A stretch of DNA of 64,000 nucleotides from Blastocatellia bacterium (GTDB taxonomy: Bacteria; Acidobacteriota; Blastocatellia; HR10): positions 1 through 64,000 of the forward strand of contig JANWYV010000039.1 of assembly GCA_025055075.1 (NCBI GenBank), written 5' to 3'. Below, piece by piece: positions 1,599-9,987 of this stretch (positions are counted from its first letter, which is position 1; every line of letters starts with the position of its first letter). Position numbers and translations under genes: made by a program. The notes below the pieces were generated by a model. It did not search any database, was not told where the DNA came from, and worked only from the letters and a program-made list of their open reading frames with translations.

Positions 1599-1627
1599 TT
1601 GACATAGCGTGGAGCCTTCACTATATT
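1599..1627 (+). promoter_or_regulatory. Sigma-70-type promoter for the secreted repeat-protein gene
   Basis: TTGACA at 1599-1604, a 17-base spacer and TATATT at 1622-1627. The -35 is perfect and the -10 matches 5 of 6. It sits about 70 bases before the chosen start at 1696, so transcription would begin near 1634. Confidence 0.7.
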
Positions 1628-1695
1628 GCGCGTCTGCTGTCGGAAGGCATGCCTTTCCGGCGGTTGAACGTCGCGCAAAGGAGGATATGGGGTGT

Positions 1696-4287
1696 ATGCG
1701 AGCTTTTGAGCGAACGTCATCTCCCGTGATCGATCGTCGGCGGCGAATCCTCATCATCGGCCTCATGCTCGGGCTCTTGGCTTCCTCCTCCCCTGAGCAT
1801 TTCGCCCAAGGCTCGTGGCAACGAGTGATTGGAACGGGCGAACTCCCTCCACCGGGGCCGTATGAGTATCGCTTGAGCGTGATGAACAACAATGGCATGG
1901 ACGTTCGGCAGGGCTTCTTTGGCACCCGGGTGTTCTATCGAGCGAAATGGCTTGGGCCGGTCCTGCGCGATCATCAGATCAACGCGGCGCGGGATGTCGC
2001 CTTCGCTCTCGCTGAGGAGACGGGCATGTTGCGCGGAGCGATCTTCCTTCGCGAAGCGGCCACTCGTCAATGGCGGCGGATCGTTCAGATCGGGGATCGC
2101 ACGCCGGAGGGGGAGGTCTTCACGCGGCTTGTGGAATTCTCCCTCAACGATGGGCGACAGATCCTCTTCGCGGCGGAGACTTCGGGACCGCCGCCCGAGG
2201 AAGGGATTCCGAGCGCCGGGCTTTTCCTGGCCGATGGGAGGACGATCGTCACCCTCCTCAAGACGGGGATGACGACCCCAGCGGGAACGCTCCTCAGCTT
2301 CTCGAACCCGCGATTGACGAACGACGGCCGGGCTTACTTTGTGGCGTCCGTGCGCACGGCGCAAGGGGCTGCAGAGACGGTGATCTTCCGCTACGCGGGG
2401 GGAACGCTGGATGTGCTCGCCCGTAAGAGCGATCCTGCGAGCACGGGCAGAATCCTCCTGGCCCTTCAGGCCGTGAGCCCACAAGGAGATGCCATCGCTT
2501 TCTTGGATCAAGTGGAGCGAGCCCTCTACGTCAGGAGGGGCGATTCGACGATTCGGGTTGTGAGAATTGGCGATGCGGCACCCGGCGTCTCGGGAGGGAC
2601 GTTCGTGGACCTCGCTGCGCCAGTCGACGCGATCTTTCCTGGATTGCCTTTTCTCGTCTCTCCGAATTCGCTCGGGCCTGGTGGCGATTTCGTGTTCGTC
2701 GGGGCGTTTCGCCGACCGAACCAGCAAGATCAAACGTTCGCGCTTTATCGCTACGCGTCCCCAAGCGGCCTTCAGGAGATCGTCCGCACGGGACAAAGCG
2801 TCGGCGGTTTCAGCGTGCAATTCCTCTGGGCGCCGACCTTGGGCGAAGGTGGAGTGATTTACTGCGGCGCAGCTTCGCAATCCATCCTCGGTGGAGGGAT
2901 TCTTCGCTTCGAGGGGAACAGCCGACAAGCGCAGAAGTTTCCTGGAGCGACGCAAACGGAGGAGAATTTGCTGCCCTATGCCATCAATCGCCGGGGCGAC
3001 GCTGTGTACGATCATATCCAGATCGTTCTGAACGCGAACTTCTCGACGCCGACCGGTCCTTTTGATAGACCCGCCTTTGGATTGAACGTTTCGCTTCGGT
3101 TGCACACGGGATCGGCGTCTTCGGAGACGTTGCTGGGTCCAGTCCAGTCCGCTCTTCCGGATAGTCCCTTTCTGGGCTTCTCGAATCTCGCTGCCAATCG
3201 TCGCGGCGATCTTCTCTTCATCGGGAATGTGAGCGGAGGCCGACATCTCTTCCGGGTCCGAGATGGCACGATAGAACTGGTGGCCCATCAAGGTCAGGTG
3301 ATCGGAGGTCTCAAGATTCGCTCCGTCACAGAGGCGGCCATCAATGATGCGGGCGTGATCGCCCTGCAAGTGGAGACGGAGGATGGGTCGGCGCTCCTGG
3401 TCCGCCGCGGAGGAGCGTTCCAAAAAGTCGTGGCTTCCGGAGATACCGTTCCTGGCGGACGCATGGTGGATATTTTCGACATCAGCCTGAATGAGCCGGG
3501 ACAGATCGCGTTCATCGCGAACGTGGCAGGCGAGGCCGGGGAGAATGTACGAAACCTCGTGTTCGTGGCCCGACCGACGACGGAGGGATATAGCCTCGAC
3601 CCGTTCTCGATCGTGGATCTGTCCTCGCTTCCACGCCTTCGGAACGCACAGGCGATCTTCTTCATGGATGTGGCGCTTGCCGATGATGGGACGCTCGCCC
3701 TCACGGTGCGCGCGCCGCGCGATGAGGGGGTTATTCTTGCGATCCCTCGACGGACGGGTCCCGGATACACGTTCCAGAAGGTCGCCGAGAGCAGTGGGGC
3801 GACGCCTTTGGGAGGCACCTTCCGCCGCGGTTCGGAGCTACAGATCGGCGGGTTCGCGCCGGAAGTCTTCTCTTTCCCTCAGATCAATGCCCAAGGAGTC
3901 GTCAGCTTCGTCGGCGTGGTGAGCCTTCCAAGCGGCGGCGAAGCACGTGCCCTCTTCGCATACTCGGGCGGATCGCTCGCGAAAGTCGTAGCGGATGGTG
4001 ATCCGACGCCTGAAGGGACGCCGGTCGAGCTTCCGCTGTTACCGGCGCACAGCATGTCGCCTACGGGTGAGATCGTCTTCTTGAGTCTGCGGTCTGGCGA
4101 ACCGAACTTGTATCTCTGGAGGCAGGGAACGCTCCGACGACTGATCGGCGCTCGACACCCTGGGCCTCAAGGAGAGCTGTTGACGCCGACTCCACCGCTT
4201 CTGGCGGTCGGAGGGGGAGTCGTCTTCGTGGGGGCGGTTCTCAACGCCGACTCGCGGCTGGCGATTTATCGGCTCGCTTTGAACTGA
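1696..4287 (+). CDS. Secreted tandem-repeat protein with NxxGxxAF-like repeats
   Basis: An 863-residue secreted protein. Four arginines are followed by a hydrophobic stretch (LIIGLMLGLLAS) and a likely signal cleavage near HFAQ. The rest is a chain of repeats of about 60-70 residues, each pairing a 'G(D/E)xxPxGxF' element (for example GDTVPGG, GDPTPEG) with an NxxGxxAF-like strand (NEPGQIAFIA, NAQGVVSFVG, NDAGVIALQV). This matches the predicted beta-propeller family called tandem repeat NxxGxxAF-containing. No enzyme motif is seen. The ATG at 1696 is chosen because AGGAGG lies 11 bases upstream; the in-frame ATG at 1687 is too close to it. It is probably monocistronic. The function is unknown, likely surface or adhesive. 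Confidence 0.75.
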   Translation: MRAFERTSSPVIDRRRRILIIGLMLGLLASSSPEHFAQGSWQRVIGTGELPPPGPYEYRLSVMNNNGMDVRQGFFGTRVFYRAKWLGPVLRDHQINAARDVAFALAEETGMLRGAIFLREAATRQWRRIVQIGDRTPEGEVFTRLVEFSLNDGRQILFAAETSGPPPEEGIPSAGLFLADGRTIVTLLKTGMTTPAGTLLSFSNPRLTNDGRAYFVASVRTAQGAAETVIFRYAGGTLDVLARKSDPASTGRILLALQAVSPQGDAIAFLDQVERALYVRRGDSTIRVVRIGDAAPGVSGGTFVDLAAPVDAIFPGLPFLVSPNSLGPGGDFVFVGAFRRPNQQDQTFALYRYASPSGLQEIVRTGQSVGGFSVQFLWAPTLGEGGVIYCGAASQSILGGGILRFEGNSRQAQKFPGATQTEENLLPYAINRRGDAVYDHIQIVLNANFSTPTGPFDRPAFGLNVSLRLHTGSASSETLLGPVQSALPDSPFLGFSNLAANRRGDLLFIGNVSGGRHLFRVRDGTIELVAHQGQVIGGLKIRSVTEAAINDAGVIALQVETEDGSALLVRRGGAFQKVVASGDTVPGGRMVDIFDISLNEPGQIAFIANVAGEAGENVRNLVFVARPTTEGYSLDPFSIVDLSSLPRLRNAQAIFFMDVALADDGTLALTVRAPRDEGVILAIPRRTGPGYTFQKVAESSGATPLGGTFRRGSELQIGGFAPEVFSFPQINAQGVVSFVGVVSLPSGGEARALFAYSGGSLAKVVADGDPTPEGTPVELPLLPAHSMSPTGEIVFLSLRSGEPNLYLWRQGTLRRLIGARHPGPQGELLTPTPPLLAVGGGVVFVGAVLNADSRLAIYRLALN

Positions 4288-5038: not shown

Positions 5039-6919
5039 ATGGTGCGCTTCACGACGCTCGACTGGATCTGGGTGGGGCTCTATCTGCTCCTGATGGTGGG
5101 CTGCGGCGTGCTCTTCTATCGCCTGGGCAAACGTTCGGAGGCGGATTTCTTCCTGGCTGGGCGAGGTCTGCCATGGTGGTTGCCGGCCACTTCAGTTTAT
5201 GCCACGCATACAGCGACCGACACACCGATGTGGGTCACCGGCATCGTCTACCAGCACGGGTTGCGCGGTCTTTGGTACACGTTCTTCTCCGCGTGGTGCG
5301 CCATCAGCGCCTTCGTGAGCGCGCGCATCTTCCGTCGTTCGCTGGCCTATAGTCAGGCCGAGTGGCAGAGCTTGCGCTTCAGCGGATTGGGGAGCGAACT
5401 CCTGCGCGGATGGATCGCCGGGTGGATGGTCTTCATGAACATGTTCATCCTCGGCTGGGTCGGCATCGCGATGGGGAAGCTCTGCGAGCTGATCTTCGGT
5501 TGGCCGGAGTGGGTGGGCCTCGTGTTGTTTTCGACGATCTGCGCCATCTACGTCTTGGCCGCCGGATATTGGGGAGTCGTCATCGCCGATTTCCAACAAG
5601 GGATCATCGCCTTCATCGCGATCCTGATCGTCTCCTTTTGGGGAATCCTCGAGGCCGGAGGCGCGCAGGGGATCGTGGCGCGGCTGCAGGCAATGGGGGA
5701 AGAGTGGCGCCTCAATCCCTTCGCGTTCACAGGCGTGTTCTCCGGGGACTTCCCCATCGCTTGGTTCGTGACGATGCTGGTGATCGCCATCATCGGAGGG
5801 TTCGGGATGGGCACGGCCATTGATTGGTACATCGAGGCCCAGCGGATTCAATCGGCGCGCACCGTTCGCGATGCCTCGTACTCGATCTGGTGGGGGACGA
5901 TGCTCGTGCTCACGCGCAACGCCTTGTGGGCCGTCGCCATCCTGGGCTTCTATGTCCTCTATCCCAACATCCCCGATCGCGCCGAATACGAGTTGGGGTG
6001 GTACCGATTAGGCTTGGAGCTTCTTCCCGCGGGGATGTTGGGCTTCTTCTTCGCGGCGATCGTCGCCATTCACCTTTCGACGATCGCCTCGCATTTGAAC
6101 CTGGGCGCCGTGTACGCGACGCGCGACCTGTATCACCACTACATCCGGCCGCAGGCATCCGAGCGGGAATTGGTCTGGGTGGGGCGGATCTCGACGCTGC
6201 TGGTGCTCATCGGCTCGTTCTTCTACGGCCTGATGATGGAGGAGATCACGAAATGGCTCATCTTCGCCCTCTGGATCATGGCGGCCGGCGTGTGGCTGCC
6301 CAACATCTTGCAGGTCGTCTGGTGGCGCTTCAACGCCTGGGGATACCTGATCTCGTGGATCGCGAATTTGGGCCTGAGCTGGTTGATCGTTTGGGTCCTG
6401 CCGGCCTTCGGCGTGTTGCCGAGGTTGCCCGATTATATGCAATTCTGGATCCTCATGGGGCTGGGCGCGCTCATCTACGTGCCGGTGACGTATCTGACGC
6501 CGCCCGAGGATATGCGACAGCTCGTGCGCTATTACGTCATGTCGCGCCCCATCGGTTGGTGGGGGCCTGTGCGGGCAGAGGCCGAACGCTTGGGCTTGAT
6601 CACTCCACGAAACGTGACGCGCCATTCCTTCCTCAAGCGCACCTGGTCGGCTGAAGAGGCTGATGAGTGGACCCGGGAGGATTGGCTGGCCATCCTCATC
6701 TCTCCCCTCGCCTACATGGCCTTGATGCTCGGCGTGGCCCTAGTGCTCCTGCGGATGTGGAGCGGCGTGGTCATCCTCCTCGCGGGCATCGGGCTGACGG
6801 CGATCATGCACTGGATCATTGATCCCAAGCTCAAGGCCGTCTCGGCGGAGTACGAGAAGAAGCAAAAGGCCTATTTGGAACAGCTCGATAAGATCCTGCG
6901 CTGGGAGGACGTGCGATGA
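5039..6919 (+). CDS. Sodium:solute symporter (SSS family)
   Basis: A 626-residue multispanning permease of the sodium:solute symporter family. The hallmark start is present: a first transmembrane helix, then KRSEADFFLAGRGLPWWL and the ATHTATDTPMWVTG segment that corresponds to the SSS sodium/substrate helix. At least twelve hydrophobic segments follow. The substrate cannot be read from sequence; sugars, organic acids and amino acids are all possible. Its stop overlaps the start of a 46-residue membrane microprotein in an ATGA junction, and a second microprotein follows, so the three probably form one transport unit. Confidence 0.88.
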   Translation: MVRFTTLDWIWVGLYLLLMVGCGVLFYRLGKRSEADFFLAGRGLPWWLPATSVYATHTATDTPMWVTGIVYQHGLRGLWYTFFSAWCAISAFVSARIFRRSLAYSQAEWQSLRFSGLGSELLRGWIAGWMVFMNMFILGWVGIAMGKLCELIFGWPEWVGLVLFSTICAIYVLAAGYWGVVIADFQQGIIAFIAILIVSFWGILEAGGAQGIVARLQAMGEEWRLNPFAFTGVFSGDFPIAWFVTMLVIAIIGGFGMGTAIDWYIEAQRIQSARTVRDASYSIWWGTMLVLTRNALWAVAILGFYVLYPNIPDRAEYELGWYRLGLELLPAGMLGFFFAAIVAIHLSTIASHLNLGAVYATRDLYHHYIRPQASERELVWVGRISTLLVLIGSFFYGLMMEEITKWLIFALWIMAAGVWLPNILQVVWWRFNAWGYLISWIANLGLSWLIVWVLPAFGVLPRLPDYMQFWILMGLGALIYVPVTYLTPPEDMRQLVRYYVMSRPIGWWGPVRAEAERLGLITPRNVTRHSFLKRTWSAEEADEWTREDWLAILISPLAYMALMLGVALVLLRMWSGVVILLAGIGLTAIMHWIIDPKLKAVSAEYEKKQKAYLEQLDKILRWEDVR

Positions 6920-7056
6920 ACGAAGGGTTCTCGGTGTTGATCGGTCTCTCCATCGCCTACGTGGCTTCGTTTCTGGGAATGCTCTTCGCCTACATCTCCT
7001 ATCGCCGCCGACAACGCGAACGCGCTCAGGCGAGCAAGGAGGAGGAGCATGCCTGA
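6916..7056 (+). CDS. Single-span membrane microprotein 1 downstream of the symporter
   Basis: A 46-codon frame opens at an ATG overlapping the symporter stop (ATGA, 6916-6919). The product has one hydrophobic helix (about residues 7-28: SVLIGLSIAYVASFL...) followed by a basic stretch YRRRQRER and an acidic tail, giving a predicted cytoplasmic C-terminus by the positive-inside rule. I recognise no family. The overlap with the permease and the next microprotein, and the clean membrane-helix composition, support a real gene, perhaps an accessory subunit analogous to the small partners of other SSS permeases. Confidence 0.6.
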   Translation: MNEGFSVLIGLSIAYVASFLGMLFAYISYRRRQRERAQASKEEEHA

Positions 7057-7183
7057 AGGAGCGCTCCTTCTGCAGACGACGCGCCCGCAGAATACATTCT
7101 GGGGGATCGTGGTGCCCTCGTTGATCTTCCTGCTCTCGTTCCTCGTCGCCTATGCGCTTTATCGGAAGTTCGCCCAGAAGTAA
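7049..7183 (+). CDS. Single-span membrane microprotein 2 downstream of the symporter
   Basis: A 44-residue frame starts 8 bases inside the preceding microprotein gene and is preceded by a strong AAGGAGGAGG Shine-Dalgarno (7036-7045). The protein has a polar N-terminus (about 17 residues), one hydrophobic helix (FWGIVVPSLIFLLSF...; residues 18-38) and a short basic tail (YRKFAQK). No family is recognised. The strong ribosome site and nested overlap argue for expression together with the symporter. Confidence 0.6.
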   Translation: MPEGALLLQTTRPQNTFWGIVVPSLIFLLSFLVAYALYRKFAQK

Positions 7184-7199
7184 AAGATCGAAGGAGGAG

Positions 7200-7229
7200 T
7201 TGGCGCTCATCTGCAGACCGTGATATGAT
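7200..7229 (+). promoter_or_regulatory. Promoter for yebC
   Basis: TTGGCG at 7200-7205, an 18-base spacer and TATGAT at 7224-7229, about 58 bases before the yebC start. Confidence 0.45.
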
Positions 7230-7286
7230 TGAGACTCCCGACGAGGGGATCTCGTCCGAGAAGATCTCGAACCAGGGGATGGACGG

Positions 7287-8042
7287 ATGTCGGGACATTC
7301 GAAGTGGCACCAAATCAAACATAAGAAGCTCGCCGCAGACGCCAAGCGGGGGAAGCTCTTCAGCAAACTGATCCGCGAGATCAGTGTCGCGGCCCGATTG
7401 GGCGGCGGAGATCCGGAGACGAATCCGCGCTTGCGGAAGGCGATCGCCGAAGCCAAGGCTAATAACATGCCGCAGGAGACCATCCAGCGGGCCATTGATC
7501 GCGGCACGGGGAAGATCGCCGGCGAACAGTACGAGGAAGTGATCTACGAGGGCTACGGTCCGGGAGGAGTCGCCGTCTTGGTCGAAGCGCTCACGAGCAA
7601 TCGGAATCGGACCGTCTCCGAGCTGCGGCATATCTTCTCCCGGCACGGGGGGAACCTCGGCGAGAGCGGGTGCGTTGCTTGGATGTTCCAGAAGAAGGGC
7701 TATATTGCCGTGGAGAAAGGCGCTCTCTCCGAGGAAGCGATCTTCGATCTCGCGCTAGAGGCGGGCGCCGAAGACGTGCGCGTGGATGACGAGGGGAACT
7801 ATGAGATCCTCACGGCGCCGGAGGATTTCGATCTCGTCCTAGAGAGGGTCAAGCAAGCGGGGATTCAGCCGCTCACGGCCCAGATCACGATGATCCCGCA
7901 ATCCTACGTGCGCCTGGAGGGGAAAGACGCCGCCATGATGCTGAAGCTCATGGACGCGCTCGAGGATCACGACGACGTGCAGCGCGTCTCGGCGAACTTC
8001 GATATCCCGGCCGAGGAGATGGCGCGCGCCGCGCTCTCTTGA
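7287..8042 (+). CDS. yebC: YebC/PmpR (TACO1) family protein
   Basis: A 251-residue YebC-family protein with the invariant opening [14 protein letters not shown], the [12 protein letters not shown] motif, [21 protein letters not shown] and the [13 protein letters not shown] segment (consensus GG.lg..GsV.w.F). The family was annotated as a DNA-binding regulator, and TACO1/YebC proteins are now linked to translation, including relief of ribosome stalling. The length is normal. It lies alone between the symporter operon and a non-coding stretch and is convergent with the thiamine-binding gene. Confidence 0.95.
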
Positions 8043-8110
8043 TACGGATCGTCGCGCGTGATCCTTTCCTTTCCGCGTGGAGGTGCATCTCTTCGCCGAT
8101 ATGGCGTGTC

Positions 8111-8305
8111 GCTCTCCCCGATCGCATCGCGCATATCAGGCTCAGCGCGCTATTGCCAACTTCCACTGGAATACGCGAGGCAGATGCCGAGTAGGCAACG
8201 TCGTCCCCAAGAGGACGTGGTTTCTCGCGTCGCGAGCTTCAGTGGAACACCCCGTTGGCGTTCGTCCTAACGCCCTGCTGAATCGCCGAGAGATTCGTGT
8301 GGGGA
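8111..8305 (+). ncRNA. Candidate rod-like structured RNA, 6S-RNA-like in architecture
   Basis: The 370 bases between convergent genes (8043-8411) hold no convincing reading frame but contain nested inverted repeats in the right order for one long interrupted hairpin. These are TCAGC 8142-8146 with GCTGA 8277-8281; GCCAAC 8155-8160 with GTTGGC 8254-8259; TTCCACTG 8161-8168 with CAGTGGAA 8240-8247; ACGCGAG 8173-8179 with CTCGCGT 8224-8230; and CGTCC 8202-8206 with GGACG 8213-8217. A CCCC/GGGG pairing near 8116/8302 could close it at about 195 nt. Size and rod-with-bubbles shape recall 6S RNA, but I recognise no conserved 6S sequence. The strand is not certain. Confidence 0.35.
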
Positions 8306-9359: not shown

Positions 9360-9444
9360 TCGAGAGGCCTTTGAGGAGATGGGGCGATCGCGTGGATTGG
9401 CTGAAACCTCAGCCGTCTCCATGGATCAGAACAGTGTAGACGAC

Positions 9445-9498
9445 GAGCCGGAGCGCCAACGTTCCGGCTCCCAATTCCGCCCCGAGGGGATGGGGCGG
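9445..9498 (+). promoter_or_regulatory. Two consecutive hairpins in the hsp20 leader
   Basis: GAGCCGGA (9445-9452) pairs perfectly with TCCGGCTC (9463-9470) over a 10-base loop. CCGCCCC (9477-9483) pairs perfectly with GGGGCGG (9492-9498) over an 8-base loop. The Shine-Dalgarno AAAGGAGGG (9515-9523) lies just downstream and is not sequestered by either stem, so this is not a classical ROSE thermometer. It may stabilise the mRNA or gate ribosome access. Confidence 0.4.
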
Positions 9499-9531
9499 CC
9501 GACGAATCTTCACGAAAGGAGGGCGATACCT

Positions 9532-9987
9532 ATGGCGCTCGTTCGATGGAGACCCTTCCGCGAATTGGAGATGTTTCGACGGGAGATTGACCGTCTCTTC
9601 GACGAGATCTTCGAGCGAGAATTCCCGGCTCCGCGTCGGGCGCGAGAGATCACGCGCGTCTTCGTGCCCGCCGTGGACATGTATGAGAAGCCGGACGAGA
9701 TCGTGCTCAAGGCCGAGCTGCCGGGGATGAACCGAGACGACATCAACATCGAGTTGACCGAGGACGCGATCACGATCTCGGGCGAGATCAAGCGGGAGGA
9801 GGAGGTGAAGGAGGCCGACTACTACTGTGCCGAGCGCACGTACGGCCGATTCTCGCGCACGATTGATCTGCCCGTGAAGGTGAACATGGAGAAGGCGGAA
9901 GCGACGTACAAGGATGGGCTCTTGGAGATTCGGTTGCCCAAGGCCGAGGAGGCCAAGCGCAAAGAGATCAAGCTGAAGGTGAAGTGA
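9532..9987 (+). CDS. Hsp20/alpha-crystallin family small heat-shock protein
   Basis: A 151-residue canonical small heat-shock protein with an N-terminal arm (LVRWRPFRELEMFRREIDRLFDEIF), an alpha-crystallin domain (VDMYEKPDEIVLKAELPGMNRDDINIELTEDAITISGE, cut here for brevity), a KDGLLEIRLPKAEEAK beta-9 region and a basic tail. It is an ATP-independent holdase that keeps unfolding proteins soluble. The start at 9532 follows AAAGGAGGG at 8-base spacing; an upstream in-frame extension to 9379 lies inside the leader and is not protein-like. It is divergent from the DUF2934-Hsp20 fusion. Confidence 0.93.
   Translation: MALVRWRPFRELEMFRREIDRLFDEIFEREFPAPRRAREITRVFVPAVDMYEKPDEIVLKAELPGMNRDDINIELTEDAITISGEIKREEEVKEADYYCAERTYGRFSRTIDLPVKVNMEKAEATYKDGLLEIRLPKAEEAKRKEIKLKVK

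Follow-up and report, generated by a model that had tools for sequence, protein, structure and literature searches.

Two single-helix proteins encoded behind a bacterial SSS permease as candidate subunits of a sodium:sugar symporter

SSS secondary transporters are usually treated as single polypeptides. In a 64,000-nucleotide stretch of DNA from a Blastocatellia bacterium, referred to here as the window, an SSS permease gene is followed by two short overlapping frames, ORF1 and ORF2. Two questions arise at this locus: (i) whether frames of this size are genes; and (ii) if they are, whether their products belong to the transporter. The reading we favor, with a probability of roughly 0.7, is that they encode single-helix subunits of a multi-part Na+:sugar symporter, its sugar probably mannose, which would act much as MAP17 does for human SGLT2.

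Two short frames behind the permease

The initial annotation described frames of 46 and 44 residues behind the permease, overlaps of 4 and 8 bases, a strong ribosome site, and a single membrane helix with a basic flank in each product. The coordinates bear this out (Table 1). The whole permease frame occupies 5039–6919 (626 aa), ORF1 overlaps its end by 4 bases (ATGA), and ORF2 overlaps ORF1 by 8; a ribosome-binding sequence stands before each short frame, and each product has one hydrophobic helix with the basic flank on its C-terminal side.

Table 1. Features of the permease locus (window positions)
Feature	Position	Strand	Basis
SSS permease core (residues 1–522 of the 626-aa protein)	5039–6604	+	Pfam SSF match; split in most relatives; model and fold matches
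C2TM, two-helix C-terminal permease part (residues 529–626)	6623–6916	+	separate gene of ~97 aa in most relatives
Ribosome-binding sequence GGGAGGA before ORF1	6903–6909	+	read in sequence
ORF1, 46-aa single-helix protein	6916–7056	+	conservation; pN/pS; profile matches
Ribosome-binding sequence AAGGAGGAGGAG before ORF2	7036–7047	+	read in sequence
ORF2, 44-aa single-helix protein	7049–7183	+	conservation; pN/pS; profile matches

Both frames, with the same overlaps, are kept in the four other congeneric species read (L002–L005), ORF2 being extended to 60 aa in L005; the frameshifts in relatives that would have counted against the initial annotation were not found in these congeners. In the non-overlapping parts, pN/pS pooled over ten (not independent) pairs from the five congeneric sequences is 0.29 for ORF1 and 0.28 for ORF2, compared with 1.25–1.70 when those stretches are read in either of the remaining forward frames; for the permease as a whole it is 0.10. 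Because pN/pS is low and the frames and overlaps are kept, ORF1 and ORF2 are, on this sequence comparison, both genes. Their shortness, and the lack of a Pfam or NCBIfam family for either, might suggest chance frames or decaying remnants behind the permease, but purifying selection, conservation over many phyla and residues invariant in all 79 ORF1 and all 77 ORF2 alignment rows rule that explanation out for practical purposes.

The alignments comprise 79 of 89 separate ORF1 frames and 77 of 88 ORF2 frames, those left out being mostly near-copies. In ORF1, M1, G10, S18, G21 and A25 are present in every row, Y15 in 78 and A14 in 75; in ORF2, P23 is present in every row, F41 in 76 and L37 in 75. 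Conservation lies on one side of the helix in both (permutation P = 0.0007 for ORF1 and 0.00025 for ORF2), and a stripe of small residues like that of ORF1 is typical of tight helix packing. The face of ORF1 comprises G10, A14, S18, G21 and A25, and that of ORF2 G19, P23, S30, A34, L37 and F41. From the stripe and the one-sided conservation, it is probable that each small helix packs against a conserved surface of a partner. In 79 of 79 ORF1 and 76 of 77 ORF2 proteins, the flank after the helix is more basic than the one before it.

Several other features of the window were noted in passing. The next gene on the + strand, at 7287, is of the YebC/TACO1 type. A large protein of 892 aa (1609–4287) has matches resembling DUF7453 repeats (PF24251) in three stretches; a 568-codon open frame antisense to it (1717–3423, minus strand) is probably an effect of high G+C. 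A small thiamine-binding-type protein (PF01910; 8415–8717, minus strand) is encoded near an Hsp20 frame (9379–9987).

The permease and its C-terminal part

The window permease matches Pfam SSF (PF00474) over residues 37–441 (E 4.2e-28; 98.8 bits, cut-off 22.8), and this profile match over the core places it in the SSS family (TC 2.A.21). Of 20 loci read from the phylum, up to 10 kb each, 19 hold the core, 66–79% identical to that of the window. In 16 of these 19 the permease is two genes, one for a core of ~521–545 aa and one for a protein of ~97 aa that matches window permease residues 529–626. We name this end piece C2TM; in the permease model it forms two long helices (546–570 and 574–620). 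Since core and C2TM are split genes in most relatives, the comparison of sequences indicates that the window permease is a fusion of the two, and that the full set is core, C2TM, ORF1 and ORF2. Three groups have the fused state, namely the window genus, one composed mainly of Gemmatimonadota, and one more; it requires at least four changes (fusion or split) on a quick tree whose 23 open forks make all change counts minima.

Some loci depart from the usual spacing or have neighbors of their own. At L106, C2TM starts 674 bases past the core stop, with something inserted between; at L137, about 1.75 kb separates the two and holds a 1.5-kb same-strand frame (6756–8285). Directly upstream of the core, L069 has an AsnA-type (aspartate-ammonia ligase) gene by Pfam, and the protein encoded upstream of the core at L078 is 92% identical to the L069 protein.

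The permease model (pLDDT 80.8, pTM 0.83) finds its best fold matches in human SGLT2-MAP17, SGLT1-MAP17 and vSGLT (Foldseek E 4e-14 at best, TM 0.66; VIA Z 19–23); SiaT and NIS score Z 20–22. With that pLDDT, and with SSS structures at Z 19–23, the model falls within the LeuT-type SSS fold. The position at which the alignments end differs among the matches: SGLT1, SGLT2 and vSGLT reach residues 558–579 of the model (558–576 for the human SGLT-MAP17 chains) and plant DUR3 reaches 572–577, whereas NIS, SiaT, SMCT1 and CHT1 stop at 487–508. These end points suggest that the first C2TM helix (546–570) occupies the place of the last SGLT helix. S364 and S365 of vSGLT, which we take to be Na+ ligands, align with S347 and T348 of the window permease, and both positions are invariant in a 20-row core alignment; Na+-coupled uptake is accordingly a prediction from family membership and this alignment.

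The position of the C2TM helix bears on where ORF1 and ORF2 might bind. In passages of PMC9616851 and PMC10203128, MAP17 is described as contacting helix M13 of hSGLT2, the activity of hSGLT2 as needing MAP17, and MAP17 itself as thought to be structural and as reported to promote surface expression of hSGLT2. Given that M13 binds MAP17 and that a C2TM helix would stand at the place of the last SGLT helix, we propose by analogy that ORF1 and/or ORF2 bind there, at the M13-like helix of C2TM. At E 1, no MAP17 chain was among the PDB sequences matched by profiles of the two small proteins; single helices carry little signal in such searches.

Occurrence, gene order and role of the pair

A scan of GTDB (one genome per species) gave 455 confirmed core loci, and we analyzed the best 80 (66–93% identity), a set that leans to close relatives and shares several genomes with the phylum set. 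These best 80 of 455 include Acidobacteriota, Aminicenantes, Ignavibacteria, Rhodothermales, Neomarinimicrobiota, Calditrichota, KSB1, Krumholzibacteriota, Gemmatimonadota, Planctomycetota, Elusimicrobia, Fibrobacter and others, with the proviso that nearly all the genomes are metagenome bins and single lineage labels may be wrong. C2TM is present at 78 of the 80 loci, and ORF1 and ORF2 are present at 76, the same 76 for both, as scored with profiles whose 23 seed sequences came mostly from those same loci. Three of the four exceptions have at most 297 bases left behind the core. At the other one, L119, the 578 bases that follow the core contain C2TM but lack ORF1; its tree neighbors L074, L075 and L136 carry ORF1–ORF2 on the opposite strand at distances of up to 4 kb. 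All three small parts lie on the same strand within 1.5 kb at 73 of the 76 loci; at L136 and L165 the pair is on the opposite strand, 2.8–4.1 kb off, and at L137 C2TM starts 1.8 kb behind the core.

The association is with one SSS subfamily. Among 25 distant SSS loci (26–33% identity), neither ORF1 nor ORF2 was found at any of the 22 with downstream DNA, where scores reach at most 3.4 bits (ORF1) and 5.7 bits (ORF2), compared with at least 29 and 26 at the 76 loci; the pair is thus not a general SSS trait. A more independent check than the seeded profiles is an ORF1 profile built from the five congeners only. Across 396 phylum genomes this profile finds ORF1-like frames in far relatives (20 at E ≤ 3e-7), almost all of them following an SSS gene of the same type; its further matches with no core nearby (E 5.7e-4 to 0.008) we treat as chance. 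In the same 396 genomes the core was found in 26 (E 1e-100, three candidates scored per genome), and ORF1 in 27 (E 1e-4, with an alignment that includes rows from some of the genomes then found). These comprise all 26 genomes with the core and, in addition, G312, in which the core is cut by the contig start; the congener-only profile matches the same 26. ORF1 occurs at one place per genome, and so does the core, except in G085, where it is split over two contigs. Within the window's class the set is confined to the window's genus among the 396 genomes, yet it is common in distant lineages, which points to horizontal gain or wide loss. In plasmid records, all SSS proteins are below 60% identity to the permease (about 26% among the eight listed).

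ORF1 starts inside the upstream gene or within 5 bases of it at 77 of 81 loci, and ORF2 starts within 10 bases of its upstream gene at 73 of 81. Motifs like a Shine–Dalgarno sequence precede 63 of 82 ORF1 starts and 53 of 81 ORF2 starts, compared with 33 of 445 control ATGs, although ORF2 start codons were chosen by rule and its N-termini are unsure. At six census loci, and also at L054, ORF1 and ORF2 form one protein, of 112–144 aa at the six, a state that takes at least two changes on the quick tree with its 23 open forks. Each of the six fusions has three hydrophobic stretches, the extra one lying between the two. Joining two helices that each cross from outside to inside in a single chain calls for another crossing in between, and the fusions in this way fit the topology derived from charge. 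A model of the natural fusion at L164 has three long helices but is loose (pLDDT 72.9, pTM 0.36).

The pair can also leave the permease operon. It does so in one family, where it lies on the opposite strand at L074, L075, L136 and L165; within f13 it has moved to the opposite strand in G273 and G101 and to another contig in G061. This separation, which shows that strict co-translation is not needed, and the missing ORF1 at L119 weigh against the subunit reading. In G061 (L070:2823–4463) it stands at a contig end behind a frame that, named by eye, resembles an FtsX-like ABC permease.

The initial annotation had proposed that the two proteins may be subunits or regulators of the permease, resembling the small partners in other SSS systems though shorter and two in number, and this proposal gains support from the 76 of 80 loci, the match across 396 genomes, the ORF1–ORF2 fusions and the conserved helix faces. 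Of its two halves, regulation seems the improbable one. As regulators, ORF1 and ORF2 would bind the permease conditionally, inhibiting it, adjusting its specificity or directing its turnover, in the manner of MgtS, SgrT or AcrZ. Proteins of 30–55 aa do act so on other transporters, as related in part of PMC10710835, and one family encodes the pair away from the permease gene. However, their occurrence matches that of the core and ORF1 lies within 5 bases of the upstream gene at 77 of 81 loci, and matched occurrence with overlapping or close genes suggests fixed amounts rather than conditional expression. Somewhat less probable still is a role as assembly or insertion helpers, needed during synthesis and absent from the finished transporter. 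It would suit single-helix proteins that have a conserved face and are made together with the permease, as well as the promotion of hSGLT2 surface expression attributed to MAP17 in part of PMC10203128. Against it, both proteins are specific to one SSS subfamily and, in our judgment, it would be unusual for a single permease to need two distinct helpers.

We therefore return to ORF1 and ORF2 as subunits, for which the following scheme may be drawn. An SSS core of the 13-helix type would bind Na+ and substrate and perform transport, and the fused C2TM would supply the extra end helix typical of SGLT-type members. ORF1 and ORF2 would be two different single-helix subunits, oriented by the positive-inside rule with the N-terminus out and the C-terminus in, whose conserved faces pack against the permease. 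Their function would most likely be structural, so that the permease folds, stays and works in the membrane, as is thought for MAP17 on M13.

Cargo and known systems

The cargo would most likely be mannose or a small mannoside, a guess drawn from alpha-mannosidase and epimerase neighbors. GH38 alpha-mannosidase genes lie near the core at 13 of 94 loci, GH92 genes at 13 and GlcNAc-2-epimerase-family genes at 11; several of the mannosidase and epimerase genes are within 70 bases of the core and in the same direction. A Pfam scan of 68 of the 97 same-strand neighbors within 300 bases found epimerase 9 times (near-copies from Rhodothermales included), GH38 7, GH92 6, ROK 2, GH2 2 and GH130 once. 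A GH38 or GH92 gene is present at 10 of the 20 phylum loci (186 kb in all), compared with none of 19 other pieces of such genomes (380 kb); L194, the only control piece with a hit, was left out because it sits beside L067, a foreground locus on the same contig, and includes some of that locus's GH38 region.

A different cargo is a possibility that we take seriously while leaning against it: ORF1 and ORF2 would still be real subunits, with the mannosidase and epimerase genes marking sugar-use regions in general. Neighbors vary by lineage, and at 44 of 74 GTDB loci GH38, GH92 and epimerase genes are all lacking (30 of 74 have at least one). Epimerases of PF07221 have several sugar substrates, and the presumed sugar-contact residues of vSGLT, Q69 and E88, are not kept, being aligned with D61 and T81 in the window permease. 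No mannosidase gene lies next to the locus in the window, the one GH38 gene of the genome being on another contig. On the other side, GH38, GH92, GH130, ROK and epimerase genes recur among the scanned neighbors, and 10 of 20 phylum loci stand against 0 of 19 control pieces. Mannose or a small mannoside stays the best guess.

Taken to its full extent, the subunit reading describes a four-piece Na+:mannose or mannoside symporter spread over many phyla: a core, a detachable C2TM subunit and two obligate single-helix subunits, some of them shorter than 30 residues, with repeated fusion and separation of the genes. Such a system would parallel SGLT-MAP17 in bacteria, with the partner helix doubled, and we found no Pfam or NCBIfam model for any of its three subunit families. 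We would put even odds on this fuller version. If it is true, subunits of 30–50 residues can be fixed parts of a transporter over long evolution; annotation would gain three families for frames that length filters tend to skip, and there would be a bacterial system in which to study how helices of the MAP17 type enable an SGLT to function. Because the parts separate in nature, the need for each helix is directly testable.

None of the three small parts of the window reaches the cut-off of a Pfam or NCBIfam family. Among the families listed, the best matches have E 0.0023 (Pfam) and 0.0024 (NCBIfam) for ORF1 rows; 0.0019 (Pfam) and 0.0013 (NCBIfam PspB, 20 of 77 rows) for ORF2 rows; and, for C2TM rows, 1.1e-5, from a baculovirus family touched by 6 of 25 rows, and 1.3e-4. 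All fall below the cut-offs and are taken as chance likeness between hydrophobic helices. PDB sequence searches with the small parts gave nothing under E 0.17.

The named family presumably nearest to ORF1 and ORF2 is NF045580, 'symporter small accessory protein', likewise a short hydrophobic partner of a symporter (33 model positions). The window ORFs do not belong to it: they give no match at E 1 (cut-off 35 bits), and a search of their own genome yielded only an unrelated site scoring 10.6 bits. At E 1e-4 the model matched none of 247 phylum genomes, while a Methanosarcina acetivorans control was matched. DUF485/YjcH, DUF997/YhdT and DUF4212 are also small hydrophobic partners encoded beside SSS genes, but they have two helices and roughly 80–110 aa, whereas ORF1 and ORF2 have a single helix. 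For C2TM, also two-helix, these three families are absent from the full match list of the window row and from the 25 families listed, of 53, for the 25 rows at E 1; DUF485 touches 2 of 77 ORF2 rows (best E 0.049).

Small partners are known for other transporters as well. MetP-MetS of Corynebacterium is likewise Na+-coupled, and the gene for its second subunit, a small protein, adjoins that for the transporter (PMC3219685); it differs from the window set in belonging to the NSS family and having one small partner. AcrZ, MgtS, SgrT and others, of ~30–55 aa, bind membrane transporters (PMC10710835, in part), but their targets are RND, Pit and PTS transporters; MgtS-type models touch 2–3 of 79 ORF1 rows, only at E 0.05–0.2. 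In the open-licence literature we found nothing on small subunits of this bacterial SSS set, which may be in print elsewhere.

The closest parallel is with SGLT2-MAP17 and SGLT1-MAP17, in each of which a sugar transporter of the SSS fold has a separate single-helix protein. The window set differs in having two different tiny partners rather than one, in a single gene cluster, and a C-terminal two-helix part that is detachable; in structural alignments its permease is about 15–20% identical to the SGLTs. Small transporter partners as such are known already from MAP17, MetS, AcrZ and MgtS; what is new here is two different conserved helices together with a detachable end piece on a single SSS core.
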